Shown here in pieces: positions 4,452 to 51,885 of a DNA stretch of 64,000 nucleotides. Under the pieces are notes generated by a model that was not told the DNA's origin, did not search any database, and was given only the letters and a program-made list of their open reading frames with translations. The DNA comes from Sugiyamaella lignohabitans (taxonomy: Eukaryota; Ascomycota; Dipodascomycetes; Dipodascales; Trichomonascaceae): positions 2,294,001-2,358,000 of the forward strand of contig NC_031671.1 of the NCBI RefSeq assembly GCF_001640025.1. Direction: 5' to 3'. Positions within the stretch are counted from its first letter, which is position 1, and each line of letters starts with the position of its first letter. Position numbers and translations under genes: made by a program.

Positions 4452-5317
4452 AAAGGACCTTAATACTGAGAGGCCGACTGGCTCGCAGATAAACAACAGT
4501 GATTTAGCTATATAAAACAATATATATAAACCTATTACGTTTGACCCGTGCACCGATCCTCGGTAAATCTTTATACAGGGAGTGACTGTGCCTCCGGCGG
4601 CTGGGGCTCCGCCCCAGACCCTGGTTGCTCCTGCTTCGCAGGAGATTCGGCTGGCATCCCCGACGTACCGACTCGAGCGTAGCGAGAGGAGCAAACAGGG
4701 TCTGGGGCGGAGCCCCAGCCGCCGGAGGCCGACCCCCATCCGCGAATACCCCCACTACAGCATTACAGCATGACGTCACATTCGCGTGAGCCCGTCCGAT
4801 AAGACAATAAAGGGGTGCATGGAGTTATCATTTCTAGGGAACGGGGATTGCCGAGTCCAGGAACCTTAATTATTTATCAATCACTACCGTAGCAAAAATA
4901 GCTTCTAAAACACGGTTCGCGATAATCATAATTGTAATCACGAGCTCTAATTTTTAGCGTTGTTCAGAAGCCAACTTTACGCCTTATATTAACTCTTTGA
5001 GTCAAGCTCGCCATCTCGTGCGGGCTATTATTGTGTGAGACGAGTACACCTTCTACTCAGCTTATTTACCACGAGGTCATTCATTCGGTCCTTGTGTACT
5101 GTACTTTTATTTTTACTTTCGACACTCGCTTTTGGCCAACTGTGCCAAATAAGGCTAAATTAGTGCCAGTTTTCACTGCTGGAACTTCCGACCTTGCATT
5201 ATTTCAGTGGGTGGATCTGATAGATCTCTCTGGGCAAGTCAAACCACTTGTGTTTTTTATTCATCTCAGTTTCTCTTATGATATATTGGAGTATATCATT
5301 GCCATAAATCTCCCAAC
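4452..5317. other. Intergenic region between elongase and sugar transporter
   Basis: Holds a complete inverted GC-rich repeat (4590-4729) in the elongase 3' flank, then about 580 bp of AT-rich sequence that should contain the transporter promoter and possibly a short first exon. A short ATG-led stretch at 5278 is discussed with the transporter. No other gene is seen. Confidence 0.55.
4590..4729. repeat. GC-rich dispersed repeat, complete inverted element (copy b)
   Basis: A 140-bp foldback element. The left arm (4590-4644) starts GCCTCCGGCGGCTGGGG and ends with hairpin CTCCTGCTTCGCAGGAG. The right arm (4669-4729) starts CGACTCGAGCG and ends CCGCCGGAGGC. The outer 32 bp of the two arms are perfect inverted repeats, separated by a 24-bp core (4645-4668) with no visible similarity to the cores of copies h and k. 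Confidence 0.92.
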
Positions 5318-7598: not shown

Positions 7599-10500
7599 CT
7601 ATTTAGCAGCATTTTTCCGCTGTCTATGTTCCTTGCCAGCCTCGATGTTATGCCAATCAAGTATCCTATCTGGTGCTAAACTACGTCTAAACTCAACAAT
7701 CTCTCTTGCCAGTTCTTCAAAAGTTTTCTTGCCATTTTGCAACGGCCGTAGATGTGCAACCAGCTTCTGTCTATACTTTTTAACCTCCTCAGGGGTATTA
7801 CCAACAGAGGCACTACTTAAATACTTGAGCACAGTCTCGTCTAGATAACCCTGTTAGTACCAAAGCCACGAGATGCCTCACTCGTAGCCGAAATCTGTAC
7901 GTCAACCTGTACTTACCAGACAAAGTAAAATCGCGAACATGTAGATCTGGACAGTCCTTTTGAACACAAATATTTCCAGCACTTTCGTTTTTACAATAAT
8001 ATCTGTGTTCAATATCAGGGATCGCATATGCGCTATAGGTCAAAGATTTATGACCAGAGCTGCCTACAAAATCCGCAAAAACAGGACTGAAGTGAAACGA
8101 CTGGAAAGACTTTAGTGGTGAATCATAGCCAGTACATCTTTTTTCATTACCGTTATCCTGCAAAATATCACGTTAGTATATTAGAAGCGAGTAAAAGATG
8201 TTAGAAACAACGAGATACTGTTACTGCAGGTTTAATCTGGAAAAGTCTCATCGGAAGATAAACGATATTTGTTCATACAAGTTCAGGGGCCATATTAGCT
8301 TTTATTTCATCTGAGTCTGCAACTTTGTTATTTTTTGGTTCTTGCTTTACGGCAACCTGTGAAACATCCATTACTTGATCAGTTACTGTAGTCATTCTGT
8401 CGGCCTCTTCGTCTCGATCTTCAGAGTCACTATCTAGAAGTTCAATAATTTCCACATCTTGCGGTATCTTGTTATTTTGTTGTTGGTGTGGGTTACCTGT
8501 TGTTTGAGTGGTATTGATATGCTCTTGGCTTTGCGAAGCTTGAATGTCGGGTGAAATGTCATTCGCTTCATTGGCGTTTGACCGCTCTATTTGAGAATCT
8601 TTCGGTACTGGCAAGGATTCGTCTGACGTGTTAAGGTCCATTCCATCAGACTTATCAGCTTCAGCCACCTCTCCCTGCTCCGTATCAATATCCATTTCTG
8701 AACCATCTTGGTTTGAATTCGAATGCTTAAAGGCCTCATCCAATGAGACTTCTTGATCATTACTAGTAGATTCAACTGCTCCTTCAAATTCATTTTCAGA
8801 GTACTTATCTGATTTATTTTCCGAATAGATATTTGAGGGGTTCTCAGCGTGCGTCTCTAGATGGCCCTCAGACGTATTCTCTGATGCATTCTCCGAGGTG
8901 CTCTCTATACGGTTCTCAGCAGGGTTTTCTGAGGGGCTCTGTACCGGGCTCTCAGCAGTCTTTTCTGAGGAGCTCTCGGAGGAGCTCTCTGAAGGGCTCT
9001 CTGAGGGGTCCTGTACCTGACTCTGTACCGGGCTCTCTAAATTACTTTGTGAATCCTGCTTTCGCTTTTTACTATCCCCAAAATCCACTTCAGAGCTATG
9101 TGACCTCTTCGCAGACTTGAGACCATTGCCCCCCACATTCTGACGACGATTATTTTCATTCTCAACTAAAGATGGGCTGCTTAATTTTTTCTGGAGGCCC
9201 CTTATTAAGGTATTGACTTCACCCTGTTCTTCATCCATAAAATCCAACTGCTTTTGGACCAACTGCGCTTTCCTGCTTATAACTGTAATGCTATTTATTT
9301 TCTCTTCCAACAATGATTTGAGTTGGACAACATCATCTTTAAGTTCAGATATCGACAACTGACTCAGCTGCTCCTTTAATGCAGCACGTTGTTTTGCAAC
9401 TGCATCCTGCCTTTGAAGGACAAGATTCAAAGTGTCATTGATATCTTTAATTGCGTCGTTGTGAGTTTCTTCTTGAGGACTAGAAATATCGTTATCAAAT
9501 GACTCATCAGTAGTTTCATTCGTTAATACCCTATCATCATTCCGACGACTTTCATTAATTGCTTTGTTTGTCGCATGTTTCTCATTCTCTACAATTTCAT
9601 TAGCAATATCGGTTTTAGTCAAGAGAGTACTGTCATTCTGGTCAGTCAGGCCACTCGGCCCATTCACACTCTCCAAAACAGACGAGCTATTTGAACTGTT
9701 TATCTTACTGCTGACGACTCTAGACCCTACCTCTGTCTTGTCTGACAAATCAGCAGGGCGAGATGAAGGAGATGATGCTGAAGAAGTAAGCCCTCGACCG
9801 TTTTGCATTCTCCTTAATTTCTCTTCCATGTTTCTAATCTTAACTAATGTATCTTGAAGCTCAGACTGTCCCTCATTATGGTCTTCGTCATCACTAATCT
9901 CAAAAACAAACTTCTGAGACCATCTGTCACTACCAAATTTTATGGGCTTTTTGCCAGTACTTTTATTAGGTTCTGGAGCTGCTGAGTGAGATCGCACCCG
10001 ATCCTCTTTTTGATGCTGTGTTTGCAGTTGTGAATGTACACGGGGTAGAGAGTAGCCAGGTTGAGGCTGTTCTGCTGCTCCCTTTTCAGATGCTATAATC
10101 GATTCTAATTTCGATGCTGATAATGCAATAATTTCCGATACAGAAGCTGACGTTGCTGCAGATCCAGAAACCGGTTCCGGTGCTGACATTGTTCCTGGTG
10201 CCATTGGAGATGTTGTCGCCGTCTGGTCAAAACTTCCCGATAACAATGGCGTTGCGGGCATCATTTCTGGTGTTCCATTTCCATCTCTTGCTTGTATGTA
10301 AGTTTCCAACGCACCAGTAAACCCATAATTTTGAGCAGCAACTTTTCGAAGCTTCGTTCTGGCCTTCTTTTTGCCTGTATTATATACTGAAGAAGCATCC
10401 CTTGCCTCCTCCTGAGGAATTGGTATGCCAAAAAATCGGTAAATATCCTGCAAAAATCGGAGTTCTATATTTCCATGAAGTAAGATTTCAGTGAAAGACA

Positions 10501-10867
10501 AGCCCAGTCGCTGTAAATCGGAGAAAGCCTGTAATGCTTCAGGAGAGGGTAATTTAAGCTTTTTCTTGCTCGCTTTCAAACCAAAAGAAGAAGGCGGAAG
10601 ATGTGGTTGCGATACCATTGATGCTGGCGCCGTAGGTAGGGTAGGTAGAGATATAGGAGCTGTAGCAATAGATGATGAAGAAGCCAGCTCATTAGCTTTC
10701 GCCCAATTGATTGCTGGCTCAGAAAGTCCAGCTCTGTCTGGTTCTTCGGATCGCTGAGCATCAGGGATCTGTGCTCCATTTTCAGAACTATTAGTATCTG
10801 CGGCATTCCAGCCAGATGAGCTACTGGCCTCTTGAACAGTAGCTATAACTTCACTACTATCTACCAT
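7599..10867 (-). CDS. Red1/ZFC3H1-like zinc-finger scaffold of nuclear RNA surveillance, three exons
   Basis: Exons on the minus strand: 10867-8279, 8157-7917 and 7840-7599, giving 1023 aa. Intron 1 (8158-8278) starts GTATGA, so its donor contains the in-frame stop that would otherwise truncate the protein; it ends TACTAAC...TTTGCAG. Intron 2 (7841-7916) is GTAAGT...TACTAAC...TCTAG. Both joins keep frame. The exon 2 product carries the zf-C3H1 domain signature: YDSPLKSFQSFHFSPVFADF, SLTYSAYAIPD, then C918-x8-C927-x4-C932-x3-H936. The long N-terminal part is disordered and Ser-rich with a coiled coil near 480-570, a Glu/Ser low-complexity block near 600-690, a strong SUMO-interacting core (EIIELLDSDSED, about 806-817) and a VKQE sumoylation consensus (840-843). 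In S. pombe Red1 and human ZFC3H1 this C-terminal finger defines scaffolds that link the Mtr4-type helicase to the exosome. S. cerevisiae has no clear orthologue. Function inferred from the domain. Confidence 0.8.
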
Positions 10868-11253: not shown

Positions 11254-12324
<1,071 letters not shown>

Positions 12325-20962: not shown

Positions 20963-23900
20963 TCAAGGTACAGCTTTAGACATCTCAATCAGTCTCTTGA
21001 CACCAGTCATCCACTGGCCACATTGTTCGCTGCGGGTGGTCAAGATGTCAACATGAAGTTGAGTGGCTGTGTTGTAGTCTTTGGCGACAAGGGATTGCGA
21101 CAATACAACTAAATCGTTGACTGTCTCATCCGAGAGGAGGTCTTCATTGTTGAGATGATCAAATAGAATGTTCAGTCTCTTTTCAGCATCAGAAACTTGT
21201 CTTTGGAAGTTTGCAGGGATTACTGGCTTGACACGCGAAAGTTCTCCACTGAGAATTTCAAAGATGGGCTGAGCATTTGCAGGAATATGACTTCTATCTC
21301 CAGGTGGATATTTAGGAGCAGGAGGCTTCTCCTCCACTGGTGGCGGTGGTGGAGGCTCTTGGTTTACAACTGGGGCACCAACTGGTGGAACCAAGTTTCT
21401 TCCTGGAGATGGAGGTGGTGGGGCTCCATAAGCTGGTCCTCCCAATTGGGAATGTCCGAAATTGTTAACACCTGGTGGTGGTTGCTGGAACTGCTGTTGT
21501 TGGCCAGGAGGTGGAGCATATGGGTTAGAAGCTCCAGGACCACTGAGTCCTGGATGTTGAGCACTTGGCGAAGGAGCATAAGGATTGGGTGGTGGAGGTG
21601 ACACAATCGATCTCGAAGGTTGAACACCTACAGGTGGTTGCTCGTTAAATCCACCATAAGGAGGATTTGGTGAGAAACTGTGGCCACTAGCACCGGCTGG
21701 AGGGGCATAGGGATTGGCAGCTGGAGGCTTTGGAGAAGCCGAAGGTGGCGCCCGTGGTGGTGGCACACCAGCAGTGGGTGGAGGTGGTGGTACGGCCGAA
21801 AACGATCCTTGTCTGGAAACAGGGTTTGATCCAACAGGAGGGCTGCTCGTTAATGGCTGGTTGGGGAATGGGCTTGCAATGGCAGTAGCAGACGAGGGTG
21901 GTCTCCTAGGAGCGCCAATAGCAGATACTGGTAAGTCGTTCCAGCCACCAGGATTCTTCTTTGGTGGAGGAGGTGCTGATGATGAAGCATTAGCAGAGTT
22001 TAGTGCTGTGACTGGAGATACCGATGATCGAATGCCTCCTACCGGTGGTGGGCCAGGGATTTGAGGAGCAGCTACAGGAGCACCTCTAGCAGGTGCTTGT
22101 TGATATCCTTGGGGTTGGTAGGGATTAGCAGGAGCACTGGCCTGAGAGTTAACTGAAATAGCAGGAACGCCAGCAGTGGGTCCTCCAACATTACTAGCAG
22201 GCGCCACTGGGGCATAAGGAGAAGCGGATGCTGGAGCAGGAACAGATGGCTTGAGACCAGCATTTGGCACAGGACCAGGAGCCTTGGCAGATGGGATATT
22301 AGAGTAGATAGAAGGAGTTGCTGCAGCAGGAGTGTTGCTTGGAACTGCACCATAGCGGGAAGTAGGAGCTCTACCAGTAGCTGTCGTGGTACTAGCAGTC
22401 TTCTTTCCAGCTTTAGCTAATCTTTCCTTTTCTAAAGAAACACCTGGATAATGTAATGGCAACAAATCCAGATATTTCTTGGCCAACTCCAGAAGTCCTT
22501 GTGACGCCACAATATTAGCATAGTCTCTGTAAACCTCGTATAATTGATCCAAGTCAGAACTGGTAGCAGCACTGCTAGGATTAATCTTTGCAGCCTCAGT
22601 AAATACAGTTACCTTTTCGATGAACAAATGAAGAGCCTTGACATGAGCAGAGTATGAACTAGCAGCTCTCTTGCTCTTGAGCTCCTCTTGTTCAGTAGCA
22701 GGGATCTCGTTAAGCCAAATAGATGCAGTCTTCTCAAGACTTGAACCAGCAATATAACATAGTAAAGCATTATTACGCAGTTCTTCAGCTTCCTTCGATG
22801 TCTTGTCGGAAATGGCACCTCTGTTGGCGAACAAACGATCACCAAGCTTTGTAGAGAGGGTCTGGAATTCTTTTTCATTGGACGAGTGGATTAACAAAGC
22901 ATTGATGGTTTGAAGCCATTCAGCTGTATCCGAGTTTTCAACCAAGTCGTCAAGATTCTTATCACTTACAGCAGCCAGCAAGCGAACAAATGGTTTAGAC
23001 TCGGCATTTTTGTTGATATAAAAATTCTTGACTCTGTCCTTAGTCTTATCGTCGGCATAAAGGGCGAGCAAGAAAGCATCTGAGAGATCACCCTGCTTAA
23101 GAGCAATCTCAACAGCTTCGTTATACTTGCCCTTGAGAATTGCTTTGCTGATGGCCTTTTCCGACTCTGATTGACCATTGGAGAAGAGGCTAAAAGACCC
23201 AGTTGGAACGTACTTACCATCAGAAATAGACAAGGAGCTCAAGAAATCGTCATCTTCAGTCTTTTCTTCACTCTTTTCATCGCTGTCATCACTAATCTCC
23301 TTGAATTTGTCTTCAAACAGAGCAGCAAACTTGCTCTTGCTGTCACCAGTCTTGCTTAAAAGAGTCTGAAGAATATCCCAGTCATATTTCTCAGTGCCCT
23401 CTTGAACATGTCCCAAACGTTCAGTGACAACCTTATTAATATCTTTAGCTTGTAAAGCAGATGCGAATTTAGTGGTCTCTTCACTCAAACTCTCGTCCTC
23501 AACAAATTTGGAAATGATAACAGTTGAAGTTTTCTTCTCGTCACCAGTGGTCTTGACGGAAACAATCTTTCCTCCAAATCCAAAGGCTGTAGAGACAGGC
23601 CTTGCCAACCACTTGGGCGCTTGTTTTAATGCAAAAGTTGGGTGTAAAGTGTCAACATAGGAAGAAGGATTCCAGAAATCATCAGGAGATCCAGACTTTT
23701 GCTTTGTTTCTGGCTTATCAACAGCGCCAACATCTTGCAAGGTTTGTACAGTGATCTTACCATCAAAAGAAGCAGAGGCAAGAATATCAGGAACCTTGGG
23801 GTTAAACTTAGTCTTGAAGTTCCAGTTGACAGCAATAGGGTATTCACCCAATTGTTCACCAGATTCAGGATTCCATAGCAAAGTACGATTATCCTTTCCA

Positions 23901-24809
23901 CCAGACAATAATAAGCCGCTGTCTTGCTTACACCAATCCAAAGATAAAACACCCTTTTCGTGACCTCTTAAGATCTTTTCAGGGGCATTTGCATTTCTCA
24001 GATCCCATAACAAGATAACTGGATTAGCATCGTCGATTGACGCCGTCATCAATTTAGTTGAGTTGTTAGGATGCCACACAACACTGCTAACAGCGCTTCG
24101 CTGACTATTGCCAGTGTTTCCCGGATTGTAGTATAAATGAAGAACCTCGCGTTTGTTTTTCAAGTCCCAGACCGAAGTGAATCCAGTGTTACCACCAGTA
24201 GCCATAATATGAGCCACGTTGTTGTTCCAAGCGACGGTTTCAATTTCATCATGGCGACTTGATTGAGTTCCAGGAGCAAATGGTGAGGCAAATTTATTAA
24301 TATCCCAGATAAAAACCTCTCCCTTTGAACCACCTGATGCTAATAAATGACTTTGAATGGGATTGAAGTCAATCGCTTTAATAGCAGCACTATGCTTCTC
24401 AGATTTTTCAACCGGACTGCTATTTCCCTTGAGAATATCTTCAGGCTTCCACACTTGCAAGCTACCAGACTCCAATGCACCTGCAATGAATCCTTGAGGG
24501 TTCGACGACGATGCACCACCCCAAGCAATATCATAGAATCTAGACAGTTAGTTTTCCACTCTTCTAAACACTGAAGTCAGTTAAATTCCTAACATACCTA
24601 GCATCAGTATCAATTGATACCTTGGGATTCAATTGGAAAGATTCAGGAGAATGGTCGAGAAGGGACAGGTCCCAAAGCTCCAATTGAGTTGTCGAAGAAA
24701 AATCCTCATCAATTGCACCTGCTACAGTACCAGTAACCAAAAGAGGTTCACTGGCACTGGGAGACCATGCAAAGGTCGATGTTCTAGGGATTTCCTTGAG
24801 TTTAACCAT
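20963..24809 (-). CDS. SEC31: COPII outer-coat subunit Sec31, two exons
   Basis: With Sec13 forms the outer cage of COPII vesicles leaving the ER and stimulates Sar1 GTPase. Exons 24809-24598 and 24539-20963, giving 1262 aa (S. cerevisiae 1273). The intron (24540-24597, 58 nt) is GTATGT...AACTAACTGTCTAG; the join restores [16 protein letters not shown] in the first WD blade. N-terminal WD40 propeller to about 330 (for example [35 protein letters not shown]), Sec13-binding and helical ACE region about 400-790, a Pro/Gly/Ala-rich disordered segment about 800-1110, and a conserved C-terminal helical domain. The Pro-rich part creates long open antisense frames that are shadows. The ends of this gene and the TMEM135-like gene are convergent, 164 bp apart. 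Confidence 0.96.
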
Positions 24810-31676: not shown

Positions 31677-31838
31677 GCCTCCGGCGGCTGGGGCTGCGCC
31701 CCAGACCCCCCGGCTCCTCTCGCTTCGCTCGAGTCGGGCGTTGAGTCCCCCTCTCGAACATGTCATTCCCCCCGAGCCCGACTCGAGCGTAGCGAGAGGA
31801 GCCGGTGGGTCTGGGGCGCAGCCCCAGCCGCCGGAGGC
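31677..31838. repeat. GC-rich dispersed repeat, two units head to head (copy f)
   Basis: Left unit 31677-31736 in reverse orientation (GCCTCCGGCGG to CTCGAGTCG) and right unit 31779-31838 forward (CGACTCGAGCG to CCGCCGGAGGC), with a 42-bp spacer. Unlike copies b, h and k, the left arm is a full mirror of the right arm and lacks the CTCCTGCTTCGCAGGAG hairpin. It fills the gap between the convergent ARO7 and YMC1 genes. Confidence 0.92.
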
Positions 31839-35639: not shown

Positions 35640-35777
35640 GCCTCCGGCGGCTGGGGCTCCGCCCCAGACCCTGGTTGCTCCTGCTTCGCAGGAGATGGCC
35701 GGGACCGTCGACAGAACGACTCGAGCGGAGCGAGAGGAGCAACCAGGGTCTGGGGCGGAGCCCCAGCCGCCGGAGGC
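35640..35777. repeat. GC-rich dispersed repeat, complete inverted element (copy h)
   Basis: A 138-bp element. Left arm 35640-35694 (GCCTCCGGCGG to CTCCTGCTTCGCAGGAG), 22-bp core 35695-35716, right arm 35717-35777. The outer 43 bp of the arms are perfect inverted repeats, the longest in the window. It occupies nearly all of the space between the convergent GID4 and DLD1 stops. Confidence 0.93.
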
Positions 35778-51749: not shown

Positions 51750-51885
51750 GCCTCCGGCGGCTGGGGCTCCGCCCCAGACTCCGTTGCTCCTGCTTCGCAG
51801 GAGATAGTTGGGGATCCCAAGGTACCGACTCGAGCGAAGCGAGAGGAGCCACGGGGTCTGGGGCAGAGCCCCAGCCGCCGGAGGC
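51750..51885. repeat. GC-rich dispersed repeat, complete inverted element (copy k)
   Basis: A 136-bp element. Left arm 51750-51803 with the CTCCTGCTTCGCAGGAG hairpin, 22-bp core 51804-51825, right arm 51826-51885 (CGACTCGAGCGAAGCGAGAG to CCGCCGGAGGC). Same architecture as copies b and h; core sequence not similar to theirs apart from an initial AT and a GTAC end shared with b. Confidence 0.93.

Follow-up and report, generated by a model that had tools for sequence, protein, structure and literature searches.

Gene model of the locus

The window, i.e., the whole 64,000-nucleotide stretch of Sugiyamaella lignohabitans DNA that was analyzed, carries on its minus strand an 864-codon frame (10867..8273) whose closing TGA lies within the hexamer GTATGA (8278..8273), as a reading made from the letters alone (here referred to as the sequence-only reading) had described it. 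The junctions proposed by that reading (8279/8157 and 7917/7840), with a TACTAAC in each intron, also fit the sequence: joining the exons 10867..8279, 8157..7917, and 7840..7599 gives a single open frame of 3072 nt that encodes 1023 aa plus a stop codon and contains 0 internal stops. The features of this gene, whose splicing and expression are predicted, are the following:

8279..10867, minus strand: exon 1, residues 1-863; scaffold of low complexity that contains an HTH candidate, an acidic motif, and a stretch predicted to form a coiled coil
10415..10543, minus strand: Red1-type HTH candidate, residues 109-151; the equivalent in S. pombe Red1 is the Iss10-binding domain
9848..9952, minus strand: residues 306-340, acidic motif (...WSQKFVFEISDDED) that aligns with the VIIDISDDE segment of the fungal relatives
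9179..9478, minus strand: predicted coiled coil, residues 464-563, from an AF2 single-sequence model
8158..8278, minus strand: intron 1, 121 nt; donor GTATGA (contains the TGA stop; donor uncertain), TACTAAC at 8178..8172, acceptor TTGCAG
7917..8157, minus strand: exon 2; Mtr4-arch-binding stretch (by homology) and zinc finger
7939..7995, minus strand: zinc finger C918-x8-C927-x4-C932-x3-H936 (CX8CX4CX3H)
7841..7916, minus strand: intron 2, 76 nt; donor GTAAGT, TACTAAC at 7859..7853, acceptor TTATCTAG; homology unbroken over the junction
7599..7840, minus strand: exon 3; residues 944-1023, which form the C-terminal tail, followed by the stop codon

Judged from its sequence, intron 2 is secure. 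Among the 13 AG positions tried as its acceptor, the one ending at 7841 yields a long tail that aligns with the relatives described below, two others yield long tails in a different frame, and the remaining 10 run into a stop within about 25 residues; moreover, the hhalign alignment is ungapped at this junction. The intron is also typical for the genome, since GTAAGT with a TACTAAC 40-70 nt further on is strongly enriched (127 occurrences genome-wide vs. 20 for the backwards pattern). TACTAAC by itself, as present in both introns, is weak evidence, because its count in the window (11, with 5.1 expected) was reached in 2 of 100 shuffles. The genome searched amounts to 15.93 Mb in 4 contigs; for S. 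lignohabitans CBS10342, PMC5499181 gives 16.0 Mb, 4 chromosomes, and introns splitting 5% of the genes.

An upstream exon, and hence some intron 1, is needed because exons 2 and 3 (residues 864-1023) contain no Met. The joining of exon 1 to exon 2 rests mainly on this lack of Met and on the TAA that the frame upstream of exon 2 reaches after five codons. The acceptor at 8158 preserves the frame, and the later in-frame acceptors at 8110 and 8101 would truncate the conserved dock. It also follows from the sequence, as had been foreseen, that intron retention would give a form without the finger; along with the finger, the entire predicted Mtr4 dock would be missing from this form of 864 aa.

Donor of intron 1

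GTATGA is, by its sequence, a weak donor for this genome. GTATGN followed by TACTAAC is barely enriched (60 matches genome-wide vs. 42 backwards controls, both for the whole pattern), and the 60 matches consist of GTATGT (24), GTATGG (14), GTATGA (12), and GTATGC (10). Candidate donors with at least 4/6 matches were examined in the interval between 600 nt upstream and 60 nt downstream, and three in-frame alternatives, namely 8386 GTAACT, 8374 GTAATG, and 8350 GTAAAG, all give open frames. It is conceivable, if still unlikely, that the same Red1 gene uses one of these, in which case the product would have 987, 991, or 999 aa, all named domains would be retained, and the TGA would be merely intronic. 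GTAACT ties with GTATGA at 5/6 in donor scoring and is closer to the genome-favored GTAAGT, and four introns identified by visual inspection of conserved genes begin with GTAGGT, GTGAGT, GTAAGT, and GTAAGT; these introns belong to Mago and to genes that we take to be TIA1/Pub1-like, SF3b14-like, and Cus2-like. However, the three alternatives lack the usual G at +5, and GTATGA is preferred here because it is the only one of the four in-frame candidates that has it. As for the earlier claim that the stop codon sits inside a splice donor, the TGA within GTATGA stands, and the use of GTATGA as the actual donor is, on sequence grounds, likely.

Homology of the C-terminal domain

A Pfam search of the joined product returned only zf-C3H1 (PF10650), at residues 918-938 with E 0.023; the 14.9 bits lie below the cut-off of 20.9 bits, so by this check alone, which the sequence-only reading had suggested, its claim would have failed. 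The same search of the unspliced 864-aa frame gave no match. As the PF10650 model has 22 positions, a longer profile of the C-terminal domain was preferred for deciding on Red1 membership. The last 165 aa match the PDB Red1 chains of the Mtr4-Red1 crystals 6yfv/6ygu (E 9.4e-7 and 1.2e-6). Of the 208 candidates from a database search with residues 860-1023, two reached E<=0.01, and each is a Coccidioides protein carrying PF10650 (E 2.4e-9 and 3.1e-9, 34% identity). A search from one of these proteins yielded 295 candidates, 192 of them within E 0.001; the 120 listed among the 192 (P0001-P0120), one of which is named 'protein red1', were used as relatives and are, where named, presumably Pezizomycotina, i.e., filamentous fungi.

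Run against a set of 2127 targets, the profile of the C-terminal domain of these 120 relatives scores the joined product at 75.1 bits (E 5.7e-22); the ORF of unspliced exon 2 reaches 54.5 bits, from which it follows that exon 3 contributes roughly 20 bits. At E<=100, the matches of this profile included neither exon 1 by itself, nor any of 1000 shuffled sequences, nor any other of the 1125 window ORFs (stop to stop, at least 30 aa). With hhalign and a fungal Red1 profile built from 41 full-length relatives, residues 868-1001 align at E 1.2e-17, and identity over the C-terminal domain is 33-38% in the seven relatives compared. Genome-wide, the C-terminus is matched solely by the two downstream exons of the gene itself (2 candidates scored). 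The assignment of approximately residues 866-1001 to a Red1/ZFC3H1 module for Mtr4 docking, with its zinc finger, is thus supported at the level of sequence.

Predicted Mtr4 dock and zinc finger

The finger residues C918, C927, C932, and H936 were found where the sequence-only reading had placed them, so that the C-terminal finger of the Red1/ZFC3H1 family (CX8CX3-4CX3H) is present; the predicted arch-binding stretch adjoining it is present as well by sequence match and sits immediately before the finger. PMC8187409 names 20 residues of Chaetomium thermophilum Red1 in its crystal structure (6yfv/6ygu), which comprise the stalk and KOW contacts, the zinc ligands, and a U-shaped element. Of these 20, 15 are identical in the joined protein, namely Y874, S876, P877, L878, F881, F884, F890, V894, S901, T903, Y904, C918, C927, C932, and H936; by class, these are 11/11 stalk, U-shape, and hydrogen-bond residues and 4/4 zinc ligands. 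The five hydrophobic KOW contacts differ (0/5 identical) and are replaced here by A908, Y917, S922, V937, and F940. The C. thermophilum protein therefore shares the Mtr4-arch-binding stretch and the C3H finger, although its finger is CX8CX3CX3H rather than CX8CX4CX3H; the spacing seen here is that of S. pombe Red1 (MTREC/NURS). PMC9402713 describes a predicted small helical domain next to the segment of ZFC3H1 and Red1 that binds MTR4; exon 3 may, by analogy, be its counterpart.

Exon 1 and alternative explanations

Weaker traces of Red1 architecture were also detected in exon 1. After the C-terminal domain, the second-best local hhalign match pairs residues 306-340 with the fungal VIIDISDDE segment, and the third-best pairs residues 111-151 with the fungal Red1 HTH. 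For these two places, which were selected post hoc, 400 block shuffles attained the score of the acidic segment in 0/400, that of the HTH in 4/400, and both together in 0/400, each at its own place. A fungal HTH profile from 5 sequences had S. pombe Red1 (7quu_B, E 0.011) as its sole match in the PDB, and AF2 without an alignment models residues 100-154 as three short helices (pLDDT 77). For the HTH candidate, HMMER gave no domain, phmmer against the PDB gave no Red1, and Foldseek gave no match at E<=0.001. Residues 464-563 are modeled by AF2 from the single sequence as two long helices (mean pLDDT 91); S. pombe Red1 dimerizes via a coiled coil that precedes its finger, according to PMC9402713. 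By analogy with S. pombe Red1, the position of the acidic motif suggests a counterpart of its Pla1-binding region (cf. PMC9922296). Taken as a whole, exon 1 is consistent with the Red1 order of HTH, acidic segment, and coiled coil, which is not proof.

These data also bear on three further explanations of the locus. It is improbable that exon 1 is a separate gene, with exons 2 and 3 belonging to another gene or to a Red1 remnant: a sequence search with residues 95-345, covering 3196 candidates, gave no homologue at E<=1, and the HTH match fails in HMMER, but such a division would leave exons 2 and 3 without a Met and with the nearby TAA above them, and it would not account for the second- and third-best Red1-profile matches falling within exon 1 in Red1 order, nor for a coiled coil predicted where Red1 has one. 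Acquisition of the Red1 gene from a filamentous fungus, instead of its retention from a yeast ancestor, appears slightly less probable still. The listed relatives are filamentous fungi where named, yet the low C-terminal identity and the N-terminus without detectable homologues are unlike a recent transfer. Least credible is a zinc-finger protein of another family that resembles Red1 merely at the finger. The modest Pfam E-value would fit it, but the homology spans about 130 residues that flank the finger on both sides and most of the Mtr4-contacting residues are kept; on sequence evidence, this explanation has already been largely refuted by the result with the 120-relative profile. The Red1/ZFC3H1 identity given in the sequence-only reading accordingly has support beyond the finger, in the dock stretch, the exon 3 tail, and the weaker collinear traces in exon 1.

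Candidate partner genes in the genome

One strong and one weak Mtr4-type place are present in the genome. The strong one scores 213.6 bits with PF13234 and has as its best PDB matches the helicase DOB1, which we take to be S. cerevisiae Mtr4. A relative of Pab2/PABPN1 is encoded by a 195-aa frame with an acidic N-terminus, an RRM, and an RGG tail; it scores 123.5 bits vs. 48.6 bits for the next place, and its RRM is 61% identical to that of the human query. A six-frame genome search with PF04959 and PF12066 gave no match for Ars2, and ERH was not detected either; no control genome gave a match in these searches, which leaves the absence of the two genes unproven. The Ars2-docking motif on Red1 is [ED][ED]GE[ILV] according to PMC9402713. 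This motif occurs in 115 of the 120 listed relatives, within the first 300 residues of each, and is absent from the joined 1023-aa protein, in which the nearest sequence is EQGEV (twice). The undetected Ars2 gene and the missing Red1 motif agree with each other; because of these observations and the undetected ERH, part of the known MTREC/PAXT complex seems, from the sequence, to be absent here.

The sole YTH-domain place found (G000:C1:5661323-5661895) lies in a frame that also carries an RRM. It matches YTHDC1 at 67 bits vs. 30 bits for 'Methylated RNA-binding protein 1' and 26 bits for ZYRO0G01672p, and Mmi1 is not among the matches listed for it at E<=0.001. Human YTHDC1 and ZFC3H1 are linked in nuclear mRNA retention, as stated in PMC11629677.

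Comparison with known systems and proposed function

With S. pombe Red1, the protein described here appears to share the order of HTH, acidic segment, coiled coil, and dock, although the parts in exon 1 are weak; it differs by the lack of the Ars2 motif, and the genome has one strong Mtr4-type place where S. pombe has Mtr4 and Mtl1. With the listed fungal Red1-like proteins, the C-terminal domain is shared and the Ars2 motif is not. Human ZFC3H1 (PAXT) has 1989 aa (PMC9402713) vs. 1023 aa here; the scaffold role would be shared by homology, and the genome analyzed also encodes counterparts of MTR4 and PABPN1. In S. cerevisiae, the same job of passing cryptic transcripts to the nuclear exosome is done via the Nrd1-TRAMP route (PMC4455066). 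The absence of Red1/ZFC3H1 from S. cerevisiae, on which the sequence-only reading had drawn, is indeed stated in two papers, with no apparent homologue of Red1, Red5, Rmn1, and Ars2 in PMC4455066 and MTREC absent in PMC9922296. A literature search at the level of titles and abstract openings found no report of Red1/ZFC3H1 in Saccharomycotina.

With a probability of roughly 90%, the locus is a two-intron protein-coding gene whose product is the Red1/ZFC3H1 scaffold in a nuclear exosome adaptor resembling MTREC/PAXT. In such an adaptor, partners would be gathered by the long N-terminal part of low complexity, the coiled coil would probably dimerize the scaffold, and the module encoded by exons 2 and 3 would dock on the arch of the Mtr4 helicase (stalk and KOW). 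Docking on Mtr4 would then lead to the passing of bound transcripts, the putative RNA targets, to the nuclear exosome.

The presence of the gene argues that MTREC/PAXT was lost within the budding yeasts. If it is expressed as read, this loss occurred piecewise: an Mtr4-Red1-Pab2 core remains, the Ars2-binding motif of Red1 is gone, and Ars2 is undetected. The species would then be a living intermediate between RNA-surveillance systems, and the replacement of one such system by another would become testable. A more far-reaching proposal, which is rather doubtful when all its parts are taken jointly, combines an Ars2-free reduced PAXT in early-branching budding yeasts with a Red1 output set by splicing and a decoy or feedback role. 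The reduced PAXT would consist of Mtr4, Red1, Pab2, and perhaps the YTHDC1-like protein noted above. Splicing of the weak-donor intron would determine Red1 output, with the unspliced 864-aa form being a scaffold without an Mtr4 dock; this form may act as a decoy, or the pre-mRNA may be targeted by the complex itself, which would create a feedback loop. Fission-yeast MTREC destroys unspliced pre-mRNA, as described in PMC4455066. The value of the locus lies in the history of nuclear RNA decay and in an additional member of the Red1/ZFC3H1 family, in a budding yeast; it also illustrates that a short Pfam model and intron-blind gene calling can hide such genes.

Other features of the window and genome

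A 206-aa frame at window positions 11254-11874 (minus strand) carries PF02390 (Methyltransf_4), which we take to be the tRNA guanine-N7-methyltransferase family. It is shorter than yeast Trm8 and is for this reason possibly an incomplete gene model. A 1080-aa frame at 20963-24205 (minus strand) combines WD40 repeats with a C-terminal SRA1 domain, presumably the arrangement of Sec31. Mago nashi is encoded by an intron-split gene at G000:C3:2387367-2388055, about 30 kb past the window end; S. lignohabitans keeps Mago and Y14, as given in PMC6351623. A GC-rich element 136-162 bp long, which has inverted arms, is dispersed in the window at positions 4590-4729, 31677-31838, 35640-35777, and 51750-51885, in addition to more single arms. 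Its arms have 14 matches in the window (<=2 mismatches) vs. 0.01 expected, and an exact arm is present in 34 of 78 loci (some overlapping), in one case within an intron (L078). It resembles a small palindromic mobile element present in abundance.
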